Assembly: GCA_902768975.1 (NCBI GenBank)
Contig: CACXMZ010000006.1
Coordinates: forward strand, 186,001 to 250,000
Length of the DNA: 64,000 bases
Origin: an uncultured Coriobacteriaceae bacterium
GTDB taxonomy: Bacteria; Actinomycetota; Coriobacteriia; Coriobacteriales; Eggerthellaceae
Reading direction: 5' to 3'
In this document: piece by piece, positions 9,057 through 12,815 of the stretch
Layout of the letters: each line of letters starts with the position of its first letter
How positions within the stretch are numbered: the stretch's first letter is position 1
Notes under the pieces: model-generated
Told to the model about the DNA's origin: nothing
Databases searched by the model: none
What the model saw: the letters and a program-made list of their open reading frames with translations, nothing else
Translations under genes and position numbers: made by a program

Positions 9057-9554
9057 ATGGCGAAGAAGCAAGAAACAAAAGCTGAAGTTGAAGCCGAGGT
9101 CGAAGAATTCGAAATCTACGAAGACGAGGACGGCAACGAATTCATCCTCGTTGATGGTGAATACGTTCCCTTCGACCCGAGCGAATACGAATTGGCCGAG
9201 GGTGGGGAAGACGAAGGCGAAGAGGCTGACGAGCTTGAAGAGACAGAAGAGGAAGTGTTCGAAGTCTTCGAGGACGAAGAAGGCGAATACATTCTTGTGG
9301 ACGGCGAGCGCGTTCCCTTTGATCCGAGCGAATACGAAGAAGTTGAAGTCGACGAAGCGGAAGACATCGACGAAGACGACGAACTCTATAACCCTTTTAT
9401 GTACGACAACGTTCAGGCGGCAACCGACGTGGCCAACGACATAGCACGCAGCGGCGCTGGCATTGCCCGTGAAGGGGCTGCCCTTGCGGGTGAAATGAAA
9501 GAAGCCATGGACGACATCAAGTCCATGCTCGACTTCAAATCCTGGCTGAAGTAG
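9057..9554 (+). CDS. Highly acidic protein with internal duplication (unknown function)
   Basis: 165 residues, unrecognised. A strongly acidic N-terminal two thirds holds a tandem duplication: residues 18-45 and 68-94 share the pattern E-D-E-x-G-x-[EF]-[IF]-I-L-V-D-G-E-x-V-P-F-D-P-S-E-Y-E. This is followed by an Asp/Glu linker, an NPFMYDN motif and an Ala-rich, probably amphipathic helix (about 117-165) ending FKSWLK. No signal peptide or membrane segment. The gene starts 10 bases after smpB with a GGAG site, so the two are probably co-transcribed. Each duplicated unit looks like two short beta strands around a VDGE turn. The function cannot be inferred from context. Confidence 0.8.
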   Translation: MAKKQETKAEVEAEVEEFEIYEDEDGNEFILVDGEYVPFDPSEYELAEGGEDEGEEADELEETEEEVFEVFEDEEGEYILVDGERVPFDPSEYEEVEVDEAEDIDEDDELYNPFMYDNVQAATDVANDIARSGAGIAREGAALAGEMKEAMDDIKSMLDFKSWLK

Positions 9555-9567
9555 GGTCGTCCTCCAG

Positions 9568-9592
9568 CGCTGATGCAGCATCCATCAGCGTC
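9568..9592. terminator. Hairpin between convergent acidic-protein gene and RiPP precursor
   Basis: 8-bp stem CGCTGATG / CATCAGCG around a short loop, 14 bases after the acidic-protein stop. There is no clear T-run, so termination is only possible; it may mark the end of both convergent transcripts. Confidence 0.4.
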
Positions 9593-9621
9593 AACATTAC
9601 TTGTCCCGGACTCCCTAGGGT

Positions 9622-9813
9622 CTATACCGCGCCTGTTCCATACCAGACTTCTTCAGAGCAACCCGACCATCCGCCTCCAGATACAGCCTCAATCTCGTCC
9701 TCGGATAGCTTGTAGCCTTCCCTCTTGGCGAGCGCCAGCAGCTCCTCGGGGCTCGTGCACTCCTTTGCCTTCTCGCGTAGTTCAGGGCTGATGTCGATGT
9801 CCTCGAGCTTCAT
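9622..9813 (-). CDS. Nif11-type leader RiPP precursor peptide
   Basis: 63 residues. The N-terminal part (MKLEDIDISPELREKAKE, then SPEELLALAKREGYKLSEDEIEAVSGG) has the look of a Nif11-like leader: acidic, helical, an EELLALAKREGYxLSxxE stretch and a double-glycine-type cleavage motif VSGG at 44-47. The remaining core (GWSGCSEEVWYGTGAV) is short and has one Cys, three residues that could be dehydrated (Ser, Ser, Thr) and two Trp. A GGAAAGGAAG ribosome site precedes the ATG. No modification enzyme, peptidase-transporter or immunity gene lies nearby, so it is an orphan precursor or is matured by enzymes encoded elsewhere. The family call is from pattern recognition of the leader. Confidence 0.75.
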   Translation of the reverse strand: MKLEDIDISPELREKAKECTSPEELLALAKREGYKLSEDEIEAVSGGGWSGCSEEVWYGTGAV

Positions 9814-9883
9814 GCTGCTTCCTTTCCTCGTGACAATGCGGTCGCTACAGCAAGGCTACAATATGCTCGCGCACAGCACAAGA

Positions 9884-9901
9884 TGACGTTCCAAAACGTC
9901 A
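9884..9901 (-). promoter_or_regulatory. Possible operator upstream of the RiPP precursor
   Basis: Perfect 7-bp inverted repeat TGACGTT-N4-AACGTCA about 70 bases upstream of the Nif11-type precursor start. It lies close to a plausible -10-like CATATT further downstream on the minus strand. Binding protein unknown; no regulator gene is adjacent. Confidence 0.3.
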
Positions 9902-10093
9902 CGACTATTTATGAGCCCTTCCCCTTGCAAGACTTAACGCACGGATCCTGCGTTTGAGATTGCAACTGACGTTCCCCATTTCTCAGTTGGTTGCCACCTC
10001 AAATGCACCAATTCGGCTCCCTGATGTGGAGATGTGCATTTAGTTTGGCAAAACTTGGTCTGTACTGCGTTTCGAGATGTGCATTTAGTCTGG
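9902..10093. other. Non-coding stretch with short direct repeats left of the repeat array
   Basis: No convincing gene. A 20-base segment (GAGATGTGCATTTAG core) occurs at 10029-10048 and again, with one difference, at 10074-10093 directly against the first 36-bp repeat. An inverted partner AAATGCAC lies at 10001-10008. An open frame on the minus strand here starts inside the repeat and encodes only the repeated QTKCTS words; it is not counted as a gene. Confidence 0.5.
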
Positions 10094-10129
10094 GTTGAAG
10101 CACTTCCTGGATTTCGGAACTCCTTCAAC
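10094..10129 (+). repeat. 36-bp hairpin repeat R1
   Basis: First of five identical 36-bp copies, all in the same orientation. Ends are GTTGAAG and CTTCAAC (7-bp perfect inverted termini); inside are TTCC and GGAA that pair around an 8-base loop (TGGATTTC), with two C-C mismatches. R1 forms the left boundary of the array and supplies the stop codon of the truncated zinc-ribbon-like frame at 10125-10214. No target-site duplication is visible. Confidence 0.95.
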
Positions 10130-10214
10130 TTGCGGCAATAAGAGTCTCACGATCATTTGGGACATCGACCGATGCACCACATTTGTCGCACCCCAAAATT
10201 TTCTTTAATGCCAT
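10125..10214 (-). pseudogene. Truncated zinc-ribbon-like small protein fragment ending in repeat R1
   Basis: 29-codon minus-strand frame beginning MALKKILGCDKCGASVDVP, with a CxxC pair typical of the first half of a zinc ribbon. It has a GCGAGG ribosome site in place. The last codons run into R1, whose GTTGAAG end provides TGA. This looks like a gene whose 3' part was replaced by the repeat, or the start of a leftmost cassette. The second CxxC expected of a complete ribbon is absent. Confidence 0.4.
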
Positions 10215-10250
10215 AGTAAACCTCGCTAAACCGTGGTATAGTTTGAGTAA

Positions 10251-10290
10251 CCGAGAGCAGTGGACCGTCCATTCGACTCTCGGCTTTTTA
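10251..10290 (+). terminator. Terminator-like hairpin with T-run (plus strand)
   Basis: 7-bp stem CCGAGAG / CTCTCGG followed by CTTTTTATTT, placed just after the stop of the nuclease-domain gene but pointing the other way. A TATAGT box lies 10-15 bases upstream on the plus strand, so a very short plus-strand RNA is conceivable. On the minus strand the hairpin lacks a T-run. Confidence 0.45.
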
Positions 10291-10743
10291 TTTCATGTAA
10301 TAGGTTTTTAATATGCCAGTCCGAGAATCGAGAAGCGATACAAAGCTGATGTGCGCTTTTTCAACAGTGGTAAGCGGCTGAAAGCTAGTATAAGCCCGCA
10401 CTAGACTCTCCTGCATTTCCTTCAGCGTCATACCATTTCGAACGTTGCTAATTAGAACATCACCACTTTGCGGCTTTATGATGTCTTTATTTTTCCCATA
10501 CAAGCAACTAAGTAGTTGGTTTCTAATTGTGTTTTCGTTGTTCAGAGTCGGATTCTTAAATTCAATTCTCTTGCCATCAATAAATATATCGGCTCTACGC
10601 GGGCCATTCCCTGAAGGCTTTAAAAACCTAACTTTTTGCCCTAGGGAAGCCAGGAGAAGAGAAGTTGAAGCACTTCCTGGATTTCGGAACTCCTTCAACG
10701 TATAATTTCGTCTCTGAAGCTCTACTCTCATGGCATATCGCAC
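10288..10743 (-). CDS. CdiA-CT-like toxin nuclease domain, N-terminally joined through repeat R2
   Basis: 151 residues if begun at 10743 (a second ATG at 10732 is as likely; neither has a strong ribosome site). The recognisable domain begins right after R2: LLASLGQKVRFLKPSG, then RADIFIDGKRIEFKNPT and a C-terminal half with ISFVSLLDSRTGILKTYY. This pattern (LA.LG..V.FL.PS...ADI.IDG...E.K.P) matches the C-terminal nuclease domain found in CdiA-type contact-dependent inhibition toxins and in related secreted toxins, many of which cut tRNA. The 12 residues LKEFRNPGSAST are encoded by the repeat. No secretion or delivery domain precedes it, so it is an orphan domain, perhaps silent. The family match is from memory of the motif spacing. 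Confidence 0.65.
   Translation of the reverse strand: MRYAMRVELQRRNYTLKEFRNPGSASTSLLLASLGQKVRFLKPSGNGPRRADIFIDGKRIEFKNPTLNNENTIRNQLLSCLYGKNKDIIKPQSGDVLISNVRNGMTLKEMQESLVRAYTSFQPLTTVEKAHISFVSLLDSRTGILKTYYMK
10664..10699 (+). repeat. 36-bp hairpin repeat R2
   Basis: Identical to R1. It lies within the open frame of the nuclease-domain gene, at the exact N-terminal edge of the recognisable toxin domain, and is read through in frame on the minus strand. Confidence 0.95.
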
Positions 10744-10786
10744 GCGTTAGAAGAAGTGGGGCGGGGCAGATTCATCGCCGGGTTTA

Positions 10787-11260
10787 TTACTCTCTGTTTT
10801 CTCTCTGAAATGCCTCGAAAGCATTATCAATCTTATCCCTGAGCCGGGAGTATGCCTCCTTCTCCGAGATCACGCCGTAGCAAGGTAGATTATCGAAATC
10901 AAGGCAGCATTCCGCGTAATGCGCAAGATATTCTCCATTCTCGTCAAGGTAATATGCCTTCACGAACGGAAGGATGTCCTCTCGGATATCGGATTCCCAA
11001 AGCTTGCCATCGCAGTCAACCATGAGGTATTCCGCACCGCTCATCTGCCGCGCGCGAACCTTCTCACAATCTTCCATATTCGCGTCTTCCCCTTCAAATC
11101 CACGATCGATAATCCATTGAATAAAAAGCCCTATATGGTTCGCTGCATACAACCAGATTGTATTGACTTGATCCTGGGTCAAATCGCCGGAGATGCCGTT
11201 CGTCTTGCGGAACAGCTCTTCTGCTGATGCCCAGTGCCAATCTGCCCTATCGATAGCCAT
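10787..11260 (-). CDS. Probable immunity-type protein (DUF7832-like)
   Basis: 157 residues, soluble, acidic. The start at 11260 (MAIDRADWHW) is preferred over the upstream ATG at 11296 because AAAGGTGG lies 6 bases before it. The N-terminus ADWHWASAEELFRKTNGI, the central AANHIGLFIQWIIDRGF, and the later VRARQMSGAEYLMVDCDGKLWESDI...FVKAYY resemble small cytoplasmic proteins often found beside polymorphic toxins and annotated as DUF7832. That suggests an immunity role, possibly against the nuclease domain encoded next downstream. It is flanked by R3 upstream and R2 downstream. Domain recognition is from memory. Confidence 0.65.
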   Translation of the reverse strand: MAIDRADWHWASAEELFRKTNGISGDLTQDQVNTIWLYAANHIGLFIQWIIDRGFEGEDANMEDCEKVRARQMSGAEYLMVDCDGKLWESDIREDILPFVKAYYLDENGEYLAHYAECCLDFDNLPCYGVISEKEAYSRLRDKIDNAFEAFQRENRE

Positions 11261-11374
11261 GTATTCCACCTTTCTTGTTGCCGCAGAACTCCTCATGAAC
11301 TCTTCTGACCTTCTGTTCGCGACGGCAAAAACCGGTCTATATTCCTACTCTCAACCCCGTATGAGGTTGTTCTA

Positions 11375-11410
11375 GTTGAAGCACTTCCTGGATTTCGGAA
11401 CTCCTTCAAC
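11375..11410 (+). repeat. 36-bp hairpin repeat R3
   Basis: Identical to R1. It lies 114 bases upstream of the DUF7832-like start and 27 bases downstream of the small RHH-like gene (minus-strand sense). Confidence 0.95.
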
Positions 11411-11437
11411 TCGATTGGAGAGATCCACGGTACTCCG

Positions 11438-11614
11438 CTATTGACTAGATTCCATGTCATTGCGTATGAGTTGCTTAATGTACCCAGATACATTGTCCTT
11501 TGTTCTTAAGTATTCATACACGTCTTGTTCGCTAGGGTAAAACCTTACTGCTACTTGCTTGACGTTTTCTTTGCGGTACTTTTCATTCGCACGTTTTTGA
11601 GCATCAGATACCAT
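11438..11614 (-). CDS. Small ribbon-helix-helix-like protein
   Basis: 58 residues beginning MVSDAQKRANEKYRKENV. A central VAVRFYPSEQDVYEYLRTK and a final NVSGYIKQLIRNDM fit the compact strand-helix-helix plan of small DNA-binding or antitoxin-like proteins common on mobile elements of Firmicutes and Actinobacteria. The start at 11614 is chosen over an upstream ATG at 11689 because GAGAGGAT precedes it and because the longer frame would run through R4 in a different reading frame from the other repeats. It begins only 18 bases after R4 and ends 27 bases before R3, making it a compact cassette. Confidence 0.65.
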   Translation of the reverse strand: MVSDAQKRANEKYRKENVKQVAVRFYPSEQDVYEYLRTKDNVSGYIKQLIRNDMESSQ

Positions 11615-11632
11615 TTTTATCCTCTCGTTGTA

Positions 11633-11668
11633 GTTGAAGCACTTCCTGGATTTCGGAACTCCTTCAAC
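11633..11668 (+). repeat. 36-bp hairpin repeat R4
   Basis: Identical to R1. Separated from R3 by 222 bp, the shortest interval, which holds just the 58-residue gene. Confidence 0.95.
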
Positions 11669-11721
11669 CATAGCGGTCGCCCGCCACATATTCAGGTTCG
11701 CACGCTGGCTTTTCCGAGCAG

Positions 11722-12234
11722 CTATTGCCTAGCCTTATAGAACAAGAACATCTCTTCAAAGACCTCGTCTGCTAGGCCTTCGGGATGTGCTGGGCTAGTA
11801 AGGTACTCGTCTATATTACAAAGCTCGTAAAACGGCAATTCGGCCGCAATCTCCATTGGAAGCCAGCACCAAATCGAATAGGCTCCCTTGCCCAATTCTT
11901 CTTTGCTGTACCTTTTAGACCTGTACGCCTCTTCTAGAGACTCCATCAGCGCGCGACCAAACTTGCCAACGCTGAACTCGTCCTCATTACTGAGCCGCCA
12001 TTCCTCCAGCATACGTAACGTACTGCGCGAATCGTCGGCTACTGTTTCAAGCTCAAGCAAAAGGCCCGTTGTTGATTCGCTATCACCGTAAAGCTTGTCT
12101 AATGCGGCACGATAGGCTGCCCCGTCACTCAGGCCTCTGTCCCAAACTAGTCCATATGCAAGCAGCTCTTCCATGCACCCTATTTTACCGCCCTCGCGGA
12201 TTCCCTGCTCATGCATAGCGCGTCCCACCATCAC
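11722..12234 (-). CDS. Unrecognised acidic protein in repeat array (possible immunity protein)
   Basis: Up to 170 residues; a start at the internal ATG of MEELLAYGLVWDRG would give about 150. No family recognised. Mostly helical, soluble and acidic, with Trp/Tyr-containing segments (YSIWCWLPMEIAAELPFYELC, then NIDEYLTSPAHPEG) and a C-terminus EVFEEMFLFYKARQ. Size, acidity and position between R5 and R4 in the same strand as a toxin domain and a probable immunity gene are consistent with an orphan immunity protein, which is inference only. Confidence 0.65.
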   Translation of the reverse strand: MMVGRAMHEQGIREGGKIGCMEELLAYGLVWDRGLSDGAAYRAALDKLYGDSESTTGLLLELETVADDSRSTLRMLEEWRLSNEDEFSVGKFGRALMESLEEAYRSKRYSKEELGKGAYSIWCWLPMEIAAELPFYELCNIDEYLTSPAHPEGLADEVFEEMFLFYKARQ

Positions 12235-12301
12235 CAGCCCTGGTTGCCTTACGTGCCCTCCTGGTCATGCGCCCACCACCCAGCGGTCCAGCCTTATAGC
12301 T

Positions 12302-12337
12302 GTTGAAGCACTTCCTGGATTTCGGAACTCCTTCAAC
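12302..12337 (+). repeat. 36-bp hairpin repeat R5
   Basis: Identical to R1; right boundary of the array. Its right end abuts, with no gap, the stop codon of a short minus-strand frame (12338-12433). Confidence 0.95.
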
Positions 12338-12433
12338 CTATAGCATTATATGACACCTTGCTCCAACACGTTTCTTCTGGTAACTAGGCACTCCTGTTAG
12401 ATATTCAATATGCGACCACTGCTTTTCGGTCAT
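12338..12433 (-). pseudogene. Short frame ending exactly at repeat R5, possibly a gene fragment
   Basis: 31 codons beginning MTEKQWSHIEYLTGVPSYQ, stop codon directly adjoining R5. The start MTxxQWxxIEYL recalls the N-terminus of some IS5-type transposases, but the stretch is too short to assign. It has no strong ribosome site. It may be a remnant of the gene that was present before the array arose. Confidence 0.25.
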
Positions 12434-12515
12434 AGTTAACAAGGTTATACGACCCGTTGGTGGAATATGTGGTATGCAGCAGTTATCCCTTATGTTTTAG
12501 GGGCGCGAGCAACAA

Positions 12516-12539
12516 AAAGCCCCGCCGAAGCGGGGCTTT
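12516..12539 (-). terminator. Intrinsic terminator of rpmB
   Basis: 10-bp perfect stem AAAGCCCCGC / GCGGGGCTTT with a CGAA/TTCG loop, followed on the minus strand by TTTTTG. It lies 22 bases after the rpmB stop codon. Confidence 0.9.
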
Positions 12540-12560
12540 CTCATGCATGTTGTGTACACC

Positions 12561-12749
12561 TTATGCGCGTTCGACCTTGCCAGCCTTCAGGCACTTGGTG
12601 CAAACGTTAGCCTGGCGCACATGACCGTCTTGGCGAATGGTCATCTTCTGCACGTTGGGGCGGAAGGTGCGATTGGACACACGATGGCTGTGGCTGATGC
12701 TGCGCCCAGCGCTGGGAGCCTTGCCGCAAATTTCACATACCTTAGACAT
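12561..12749 (-). CDS. rpmB: 50S ribosomal protein L28
   Basis: 62 residues, full length. The sequence MSKVCEICGKAPSAGRSISHSHRVSNRTFRPN is diagnostic of bL28 of the zinc-binding (C+) form: CEIC near the start and CTKC near the end supply four cysteines. Single-gene unit with its own promoter (12816-12844) and a strong terminator. Confidence 0.97.
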   Translation of the reverse strand: MSKVCEICGKAPSAGRSISHSHRVSNRTFRPNVQKMTIRQDGHVRQANVCTKCLKAGKVERA

Positions 12750-12815
12750 TTTCCATCACTCTTTCGTATTCACATGCGCCCCATCTAGGCGCTTCTTTCT
12801 CAAAACAGCCTACGT

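Follow-up and report, generated by a model that had tools for sequence, protein, structure and literature searches.

Identical 36-nt repeats bounding gene-sized intervals beside a Cas2 remnant in an uncultured Eggerthellaceae bacterium: a possible CRISPR-related route of gene capture

Introduction

When Cas1 and Cas2 of clustered regularly interspaced short palindromic repeats (CRISPR) systems integrate DNA, a fixed repeat is duplicated around unrelated DNA with no other target duplication, as is established for 30-bp spacers. Short sites of other kinds also bound mobile genes: integrons and clusters of attC sites lacking integron integrases (CALIN, by definition without IntI) carry cassettes between palindromic sites, and pdif (XerC/D) modules carry genes between 28-bp sites of 11-6-11 layout, while solitary repeat units and RNA anti-CRISPRs are known from phages. 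The present analysis concerns a stretch of 64,000 nucleotides, here called the window, from an uncultured Coriobacteriaceae bacterium (GTDB family Eggerthellaceae; assembly GCA_902768975.1, contig CACXMZ010000006.1, positions 186,001 to 250,000 of the forward strand), and within it five 36-nt repeats that bound gene-sized intervals and lie beside the remnant of a cas2 gene.

Like type II-C CRISPR with cas1-cas2, these loci have identical 36-nt direct repeats with inverted ends that start beside a type II-like cas2; unlike it, their intervals run from hundreds to more than 1000 nt and contain genes, no cas9 was found beside them, and their Cas2 is without an FFDLP motif. Of the features by which CRISPR arrays are recognized, near-identical direct repeats of 23-50 nt are present, the window's intervals are not short regular spacers (about 26-72 nt), and the adjacent cas genes are represented by a Cas2 remnant only, tblastn detecting neither cas1 nor cas9 in the window. 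Integrons and CALIN share the head-to-tail cassettes between palindromic sites and the cargo of toxin-antitoxin (TA), immunity-like and resistance genes, but here the site is a fixed 36-mer, its GTT/AAC polarity is opposite to that of attC, and no IntI was found. The pdif modules likewise mobilize TA or resistance genes between short sites, but the present sites are 36 bp long and the window region has no plasmid match. As with solitary phage units, the phage contigs L191 and L192 each contain one exact repeat, but here that repeat is also found on either side of a resistance-gene interval on a plasmid. The explanation that we favour, tentatively, is that the repeat is the CRISPR-type direct repeat of an effector-less, type II-like Cas1-Cas2 lineage with gene-sized "spacers."

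Results

The five repeats start at 10094, 10664, 11375, 11633 and 12302 and, as the original prediction had stated from the sequence of the window, agree at all 36 nt from 10094-10129 through 12302-12337. They were located with a core pattern and a repeat model (R2), and the last adjoins the cas2 remnant:

10094..10129, minus strand: repeat copy 1, farthest from the cas2 remnant (pattern and R2, 50 bits)
10664..10699, minus strand: repeat copy 2 (pattern and R2)
11375..11410, minus strand: repeat copy 3 (pattern and R2)
11633..11668, minus strand: repeat copy 4 (pattern and R2)
12302..12337, minus strand: repeat copy 5, directly after the stop codon of the cas2 remnant (pattern, open frame)
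12338..12496, minus strand: 52-codon open frame, C-terminal remnant of a type II-like Cas2 (..ITLLTMTEKQWSHIEYLTG..VGARCHIML, TAG; homology to Cas2s)

Start spacings of 570, 711, 258 and 669 nt leave intervals of 534, 675, 222 and 633 nt, within which a repeat-model search found no decayed or hidden copies. The core pattern matched ten times in the window (at five palindromic sites, once per strand), whereas 100 shuffles averaged 0.05 matches and never exceeded 1, and across the whole 1.89-Mb genome (G000) these five copies are the sole ones, a reversed control pattern giving none. Each repeat consists of a 14-nt arm, an 8-nt centre and a second 14-nt arm, the arms being symmetric at 12 of 14 positions.

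The neighbour that recurs beside the repeats across genomes is Cas2. The window's 52-codon frame, which ends at the base preceding copy 5, matches the Cas2 of a Campylobacter coli plasmid at 48.8% over 43 aa (E 5e-9) and that of G101, a genome of the same family, at 40% over 42 aa; by itself it scores weakly (TIGR01573 12.2 bits, E 0.16; PDB Cas2 E 0.0099). Comparison with its counterpart in the related genome G004 gives 9 synonymous codon changes and 5 non-synonymous ones (5/8 and 1/13 in the other frames), and the stop is retained despite a change from TAG to TAA. The G101 Cas2 reaches 29.1 bits with PF09827 (cut-off 23.8), 37.7 bits with TIGR01573 (cut-off 24.5) and E 2.8e-11 against a PDB Cas2, and its stop codon touches the first repeat copy. 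The repeat family is thus very probably Cas2-associated. Stop codons touch or fall within the repeat at window copy 5, in G004, at G101 copy 1, and in the Actinomycetaceae genome G138 at C108 (twice), C111 and C78 copy 1, whereas the cas2 stop lies 66 and 54 nt from the repeat in C. coli and Lachnospira eligens. Since TGA occurs near each end, on both strands, in the repeats of the window, G138 and C. coli, the repeats may simply terminate open frames. Such abutting stop codons, and the position of palindromes near gene ends, are what would be seen if the repeats were transcription terminators or other expression signals copied along with genes; however, a scan of 9550-12560 lists no repeat as terminator-like and the loop is identical as well, so that this is the least probable of the explanations weighed here.

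Further loci were identified by tblastn against 72,556 plasmid records, in which the G101 Cas2 found 15 matches and the C. coli Cas2 14. Eight matched records were inspected, of which four are gene-sized, three canonical and one without a repeat. In the first four (C. coli p13786, two L. eligens strains of the same layout, and Treponema saccharophilum pTS1), cas2 is followed by two 36-nt repeats a gene-sized distance apart, with no cas9 annotated in the stretch; adjacency to cas2 is therefore seen in independent loci. The C. coli repeats (NZ_OQ553946.1) are identical and 1494 nt apart, bounding a GNAT gene and aph(2'')-Ii, those of L. eligens (NC_012780.1) are 712 nt apart with the second copy 1 nt short, and those of T. 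saccharophilum (NZ_AP025289.1) are 1375 nt apart. In the canonical controls the repeats are 63-71 nt apart (Ilyobacter, with cas9 annotated; Pasteurella multocida, with cas9 by tblastn; Subdoligranulum, without a cas9 test), and the Acidovorax record has a broken cas1 and no detected repeat. A C. jejuni plasmid stretch with aph(2'')-Ih, partly similar to that of C. coli, contains no repeat copy at up to 8 mismatches, and blastn of the window region against plasmids and phages gave no match. A length of 36 and the ends GTTGAA..TTCAA are common to the repeats of C. coli, L. eligens, G000 and G138, with exceptions: the second L. eligens copy measures 35 nt, and the G138 copies C108c and C111 end in G.

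The FFDLP motif holds the metal-binding Asp of Cas2. In an alignment of few sequences, the canonical Cas2 rows have FFDLP near the start, whereas those of C. coli (VILSPTDRWGTKTEY), L. eligens (FILSPTEKWGTKTEY) and G101 (VPLKPTNKHGTKTSY) are without it; the T. saccharophilum cas2 frame is interrupted before this region and stands outside the comparison. The C. coli, L. eligens and G101 proteins share GTKT.Y and a ..VG..SHIM/IL tail, and the window remnant has the tail VGARCHIML.

More distant relatives bear on how the repeat is built. In G138, from buffalo abomasum, the window repeat recurs at 31/36 identity on one strand (counted by eye), with three copies at C108 that have 14, 14 and 13 paired arm positions and six more diverged copies at two other places (nine sites at three places in total), near which lie a HigBA pair, a DUF2442 gene, a Fic gene and others. 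Between two G138 repeats, L065:3298-3558 codes for the C-terminal part of an R3H (Jag-like) protein, which looks like a piece of gene that was captured. G101, a one-contig genome found with R2, has four copies (L181, 9010, 9398, 10111 and 11844; spacings 388, 713 and 1733 nt) at a locus unrelated to the smpB-rpmB site of the window. The arms of these copies vary with compensation (GGG/CCC against GGC/GCC, TTTG/CAAA against TTTT/AAAA), up to 17 of 18 positions are paired, and the centre is near-palindromic. Over 11 distinct sequences, 5 of the 14 arm pairs are altered on both sides and none of 500 shuffles matches the covariation score observed, a result biased toward structure in that the structure was derived from those same 11 sequences.

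These relatives also decide much about the original prediction, which had described an imperfect hairpin of a type used by single-strand-specific recombinases and had proposed a comparison of its mismatch positions across species. The anatomy is as described, with 7 bp of GTTGAAG/CTTCAAC, then C-C, A-T and C-C, then TTCC/GGAA around an 8-nt loop; the opposite strand has G-G mismatches and the more stable fold (-9.4 vs -5.1 kcal/mol; z -5.5 vs -2.4). The resemblance of the copies to recombination or integration sites also stands. The prediction does not mention the symmetry of the arms, the bounding of gene-sized intervals in one orientation or the cas2 remnant next to the last copy. The mismatches, however, are not conserved, perfect 14-bp arms occurring in 2 of 3 copies at G138 C108 and in 3 of 4 G101 copies; judged from the aligned sequences, arm symmetry is retained across relatives and the C-C bulges are not, and recognition of a bulged hairpin is therefore refuted by the test that the prediction itself had set. 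Foldable repeats, cargo of toxin, TA-type and immunity-like genes and the single polarity in the window would suit hairpin sites recognized in single-strand form by an integron integrase or by a Y1 enzyme (IS200/IS605, TnpA-REP). Beyond the unconserved mismatches, though, the attC core (RYYYAAC..GTTRRRY, at least 6/7 paired) is absent from both strands of 10001-12400 and no PF00589 protein that was scored reached the cut-off of the integron-integrase model: one of five matches in G000 was scored, at 103.5 bits against 265, the other four being unscored, and three Xer-like proteins of G138 fell below it. The repeats are not dispersed, and among the three genomes searched for a Y1 TnpA gene none was present in G000 or G138 and one in G004, which together make such sites very improbable.

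Double-strand core sites of a tyrosine recombinase, at which cassettes would be exchanged, are improbable to a lesser degree. Like loxP or FRT, the repeat has inverted arms of 13-14 bp and an asymmetric 8-bp spacer, this 14-8-14 layout has a single orientation in the window, and G000 and G138 each encode a third Xer-like recombinase, with 44.6% mutual identity and of a type that 2 of 137 family genomes show at E<=1e-55. Yet neither of these adjoins an array, nor does any recombinase adjoin any array seen; G004 has none of this type; the G000 enzyme lies by 33-bp inverted repeats of its own, which are unlike the 36-mer; the G101 centre is near-symmetric; and the link to Cas2 would be left unexplained. 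The 33-bp perfect inverted repeats (L046, G000:C10, 8695-8727 and 11300-11332) lie at the starts of two convergent open reading frames (ORFs) for an ATP-grasp protein and a pentapeptide-repeat protein, and with the recombinase adjoining them at L046 11339-12298 the arrangement looks like a DNA-inversion switch.

On the chromosome, the array lies between smpB, with an acidic ORF, and rpmB:

12561..12755, minus strand: rpmB (L28), right chromosomal border (open frame, named by eye; synteny)
9555..10093, no strand: segment from the acidic ORF after smpB to copy 1, unlike G004 (comparison)

The array is absent from three relatives of the same genus, G001, G002 and G005 having about 300, 80 and 250 nt between the matched ends at smpB-rpmB and no repeat, while the contig of G003 ends before the site is completed. 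In G004 an array adjoins the same genes; two of its copies are good and one is of 81%, and its cargo (an NYN protein, an ATC-hydrolase-like protein and a TipAS regulator) is wholly different from that of the window; the right flank shared by G000 and G004 begins at the repeat (89% identity, 569 bases from 12302). Tandem repeats of 35 nt (GGGAAATTGGGGACGGAGGATATTGTCCCAAAAAT type) lie upstream of the degenerate G004 copy (L008:171-309). In the window, 20-nt direct repeats occupy 10029-10048 and 10074-10093, the second abutting copy 1, and this pair (10029..10093) is a possible leader or relic. A small minus-strand ORF at 9630-9820 (read by eye) reads MKLEDIDISPELREKAKECTSPEELLALAKREGYKLSEDEIEAVSGGGW.., which we take, from its motif, to be like the Nif11-type leader of a ribosomally made peptide.

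The intervals contain four listed ORFs, all on the minus strand:

10288..10743, minus strand: interval 1, CdiA_C (PF18451) tRNase-type toxin domain (28.5 bits, cut-off 26.6)
10787..11296, minus strand: interval 2, DUF7832 protein (79.4 bits, cut-off 27)
11438..11689, minus strand: interval 3, small ORF (no Pfam family above cut-off)
11722..12234, minus strand: interval 4, 170-aa ORF, no family found (ORF list and domain searches)

The CdiA_C frame passes through copy 2, leaving its start uncertain, and may be an orphan C-terminal module; the DUF7832 protein would, from its context, be immunity-like. The interval 3 frame crosses copy 4, and its true start is therefore probably downstream of copy 4. 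No PADLOC model matched the four ORFs, and Rfam (gathering cut-off) and tRNA scans of the window returned nothing. By eye, the L. eligens interval ends in an apparently truncated gene and the G101 and window intervals begin with toxin ends that have no front part, so that the contents look like captured fragments and not tidy cassettes.

Another model (R1) matched G000 alone among 396 genomes of the phylum, and R2 over 213 genomes of the G138 family gave six at E<=0.1, namely G138 and five with single weak places (20.6-26.0 bits) that were dropped. Over 396 genomes of the class, R2 gave 22 at E<=0.01, comprising G000, G101, G002 (two degenerate sites, L182) and 19 others. Among these 19, G466 and G936 have one weak place each and were dropped, and 17 belong to genus g52, perhaps Collinsella, in which a different, dispersed 54-55-nt palindrome lies mostly amid ordinary genes and does not form cassette arrays. 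The g52 palindromes (L155-L168, L170-L173, L176-L180) have conserved arms and variable loops and sometimes lie by TA or AbiEi-like genes. A family-wide pattern search matched 22 of 138 genomes; the smpB-rpmB sites of G000 and G004 were retained, and the remainder, including a G002 hairpin (C150) over a ribosomal-protein stop codon, were dropped by eye as unlike the 36-mer.

In viral contigs the exact repeat pattern had no match, and 52 contigs with a 15-specified-base core were attributed to chance, the best model score (21.4 bits) lying inside a coding gene. One match, L123:4268-4302, contains AGATCGGAAGAG, which we take to be the start of a common sequencing adapter and a possible assembly residue. 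The exact C. coli repeat occurs once each in two phage contigs without cas genes (L191:8371, L192:221). In L192 it lies inside a phage gene with the 7-bp CGGCGAT on either side, and in L191 a phage ORF stops within it. No empty site was found for either copy, one search giving partial matches beyond the repeat only. Viral contigs yielded no relatives of the C. coli Cas2 or Cas1, and among 50,697 phage records three matched that Cas2, all below 33% identity.

Discussion

Taking all of these loci together, insertion of long DNA by the Cas1-Cas2 of this lineage would, we infer, be the simplest reading. An integrase, either Cas1-Cas2 or a derivative, would nick both ends of a repeat, whereupon a DNA fragment of hundreds of bases would be joined and the repeat copied on either side. 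Integration of this kind would account for the identity of the 36-nt repeats, the lack of any further target duplication, intervals unrelated to one another and the location of the first repeat beside cas2. In the window, the adjacent cas genes would since have been lost save for the last 52 codons of cas2, and the array may now be passively carried or altered by recombination between repeats. Gene capture by Cas1-Cas2 can be put forward as a plausible but provisional proposal. It is a more speculative step to suppose that a Cas1-Cas2 lineage freed from interference became a gene-capture integrase that stores whole genes, among them toxin ends, immunity-like and TA genes and an aminoglycoside-resistance gene, between duplicated 36-nt repeats, and that such an integron-like system, built from CRISPR adaptation machinery, spans Actinomycetota, Bacillota, Spirochaetota and a Campylobacter plasmid, with solitary repeats in phages.

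Several observations weigh against capture by Cas1-Cas2. Known Cas1-Cas2 take prespacers of about 30 bp. The stretches inspected did not show an intact cas1-cas2 next to any gene-sized array, and the window remnant is short. The C. coli cas1 is shortened to 171 aa, a tblastn search limited to the retrieved stretches of G000, G004, G101, L. eligens and T. saccharophilum detected neither cas1 nor cas9, and no Cas2 was found in the G138 stretches that hold its three repeat places. The T. saccharophilum repeat end resembles canonical repeats, and the solitary phage copies indicate that the 36-mer also moves alone. Finally, in the cas9-bearing locus of P. multocida NZ_CP113523.1 (L187 6542-8800), two repeats are 66 nt apart and a third lies 2148 nt on, across a gap that holds TA-type genes (DUF4258, CopG antitoxin), so ordinary arrays can acquire gene-sized gaps.

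This P. multocida block is also part of the case for the main rival explanation, a close one, in which type II CRISPR arrays decayed, losing cas operon and spacers, after which RecA recombination or other elements brought genes in between the surviving repeats or reshuffled them there. The cas2 remnants of G000 and G004, the shortened C. coli cas1 and the lack of any cas9 found nearby would all be expected from such decay and invasion, which is a distinct though doubtful possibility. However, a 66-nt unit is missing from all six loci with gene-sized spacing (G000, G004, G101, C. coli, L. eligens, T. saccharophilum), the window intervals are free of degenerate repeats, the repeats stay identical though the cas genes are gone, and those of G101 have changed by compensation and not by decay.

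The loci suggest a way of collecting genes that has been little noticed. In the titles and abstracts covered, preprints lying outside them, no description of gene-sized intervals between CRISPR-type repeats was found. If capture by Cas1-Cas2 is borne out, it would add a third means of acquiring cassettes to those of integrons and Xer modules and would place a CRISPR integrase in another job, with a clinical foothold in the aph(2'')-Ii gene that lies between repeats on the C. coli plasmid. Even if the arrays are products of decay and invasion, former CRISPR arrays would serve as sites where genes for competition and resistance settle.
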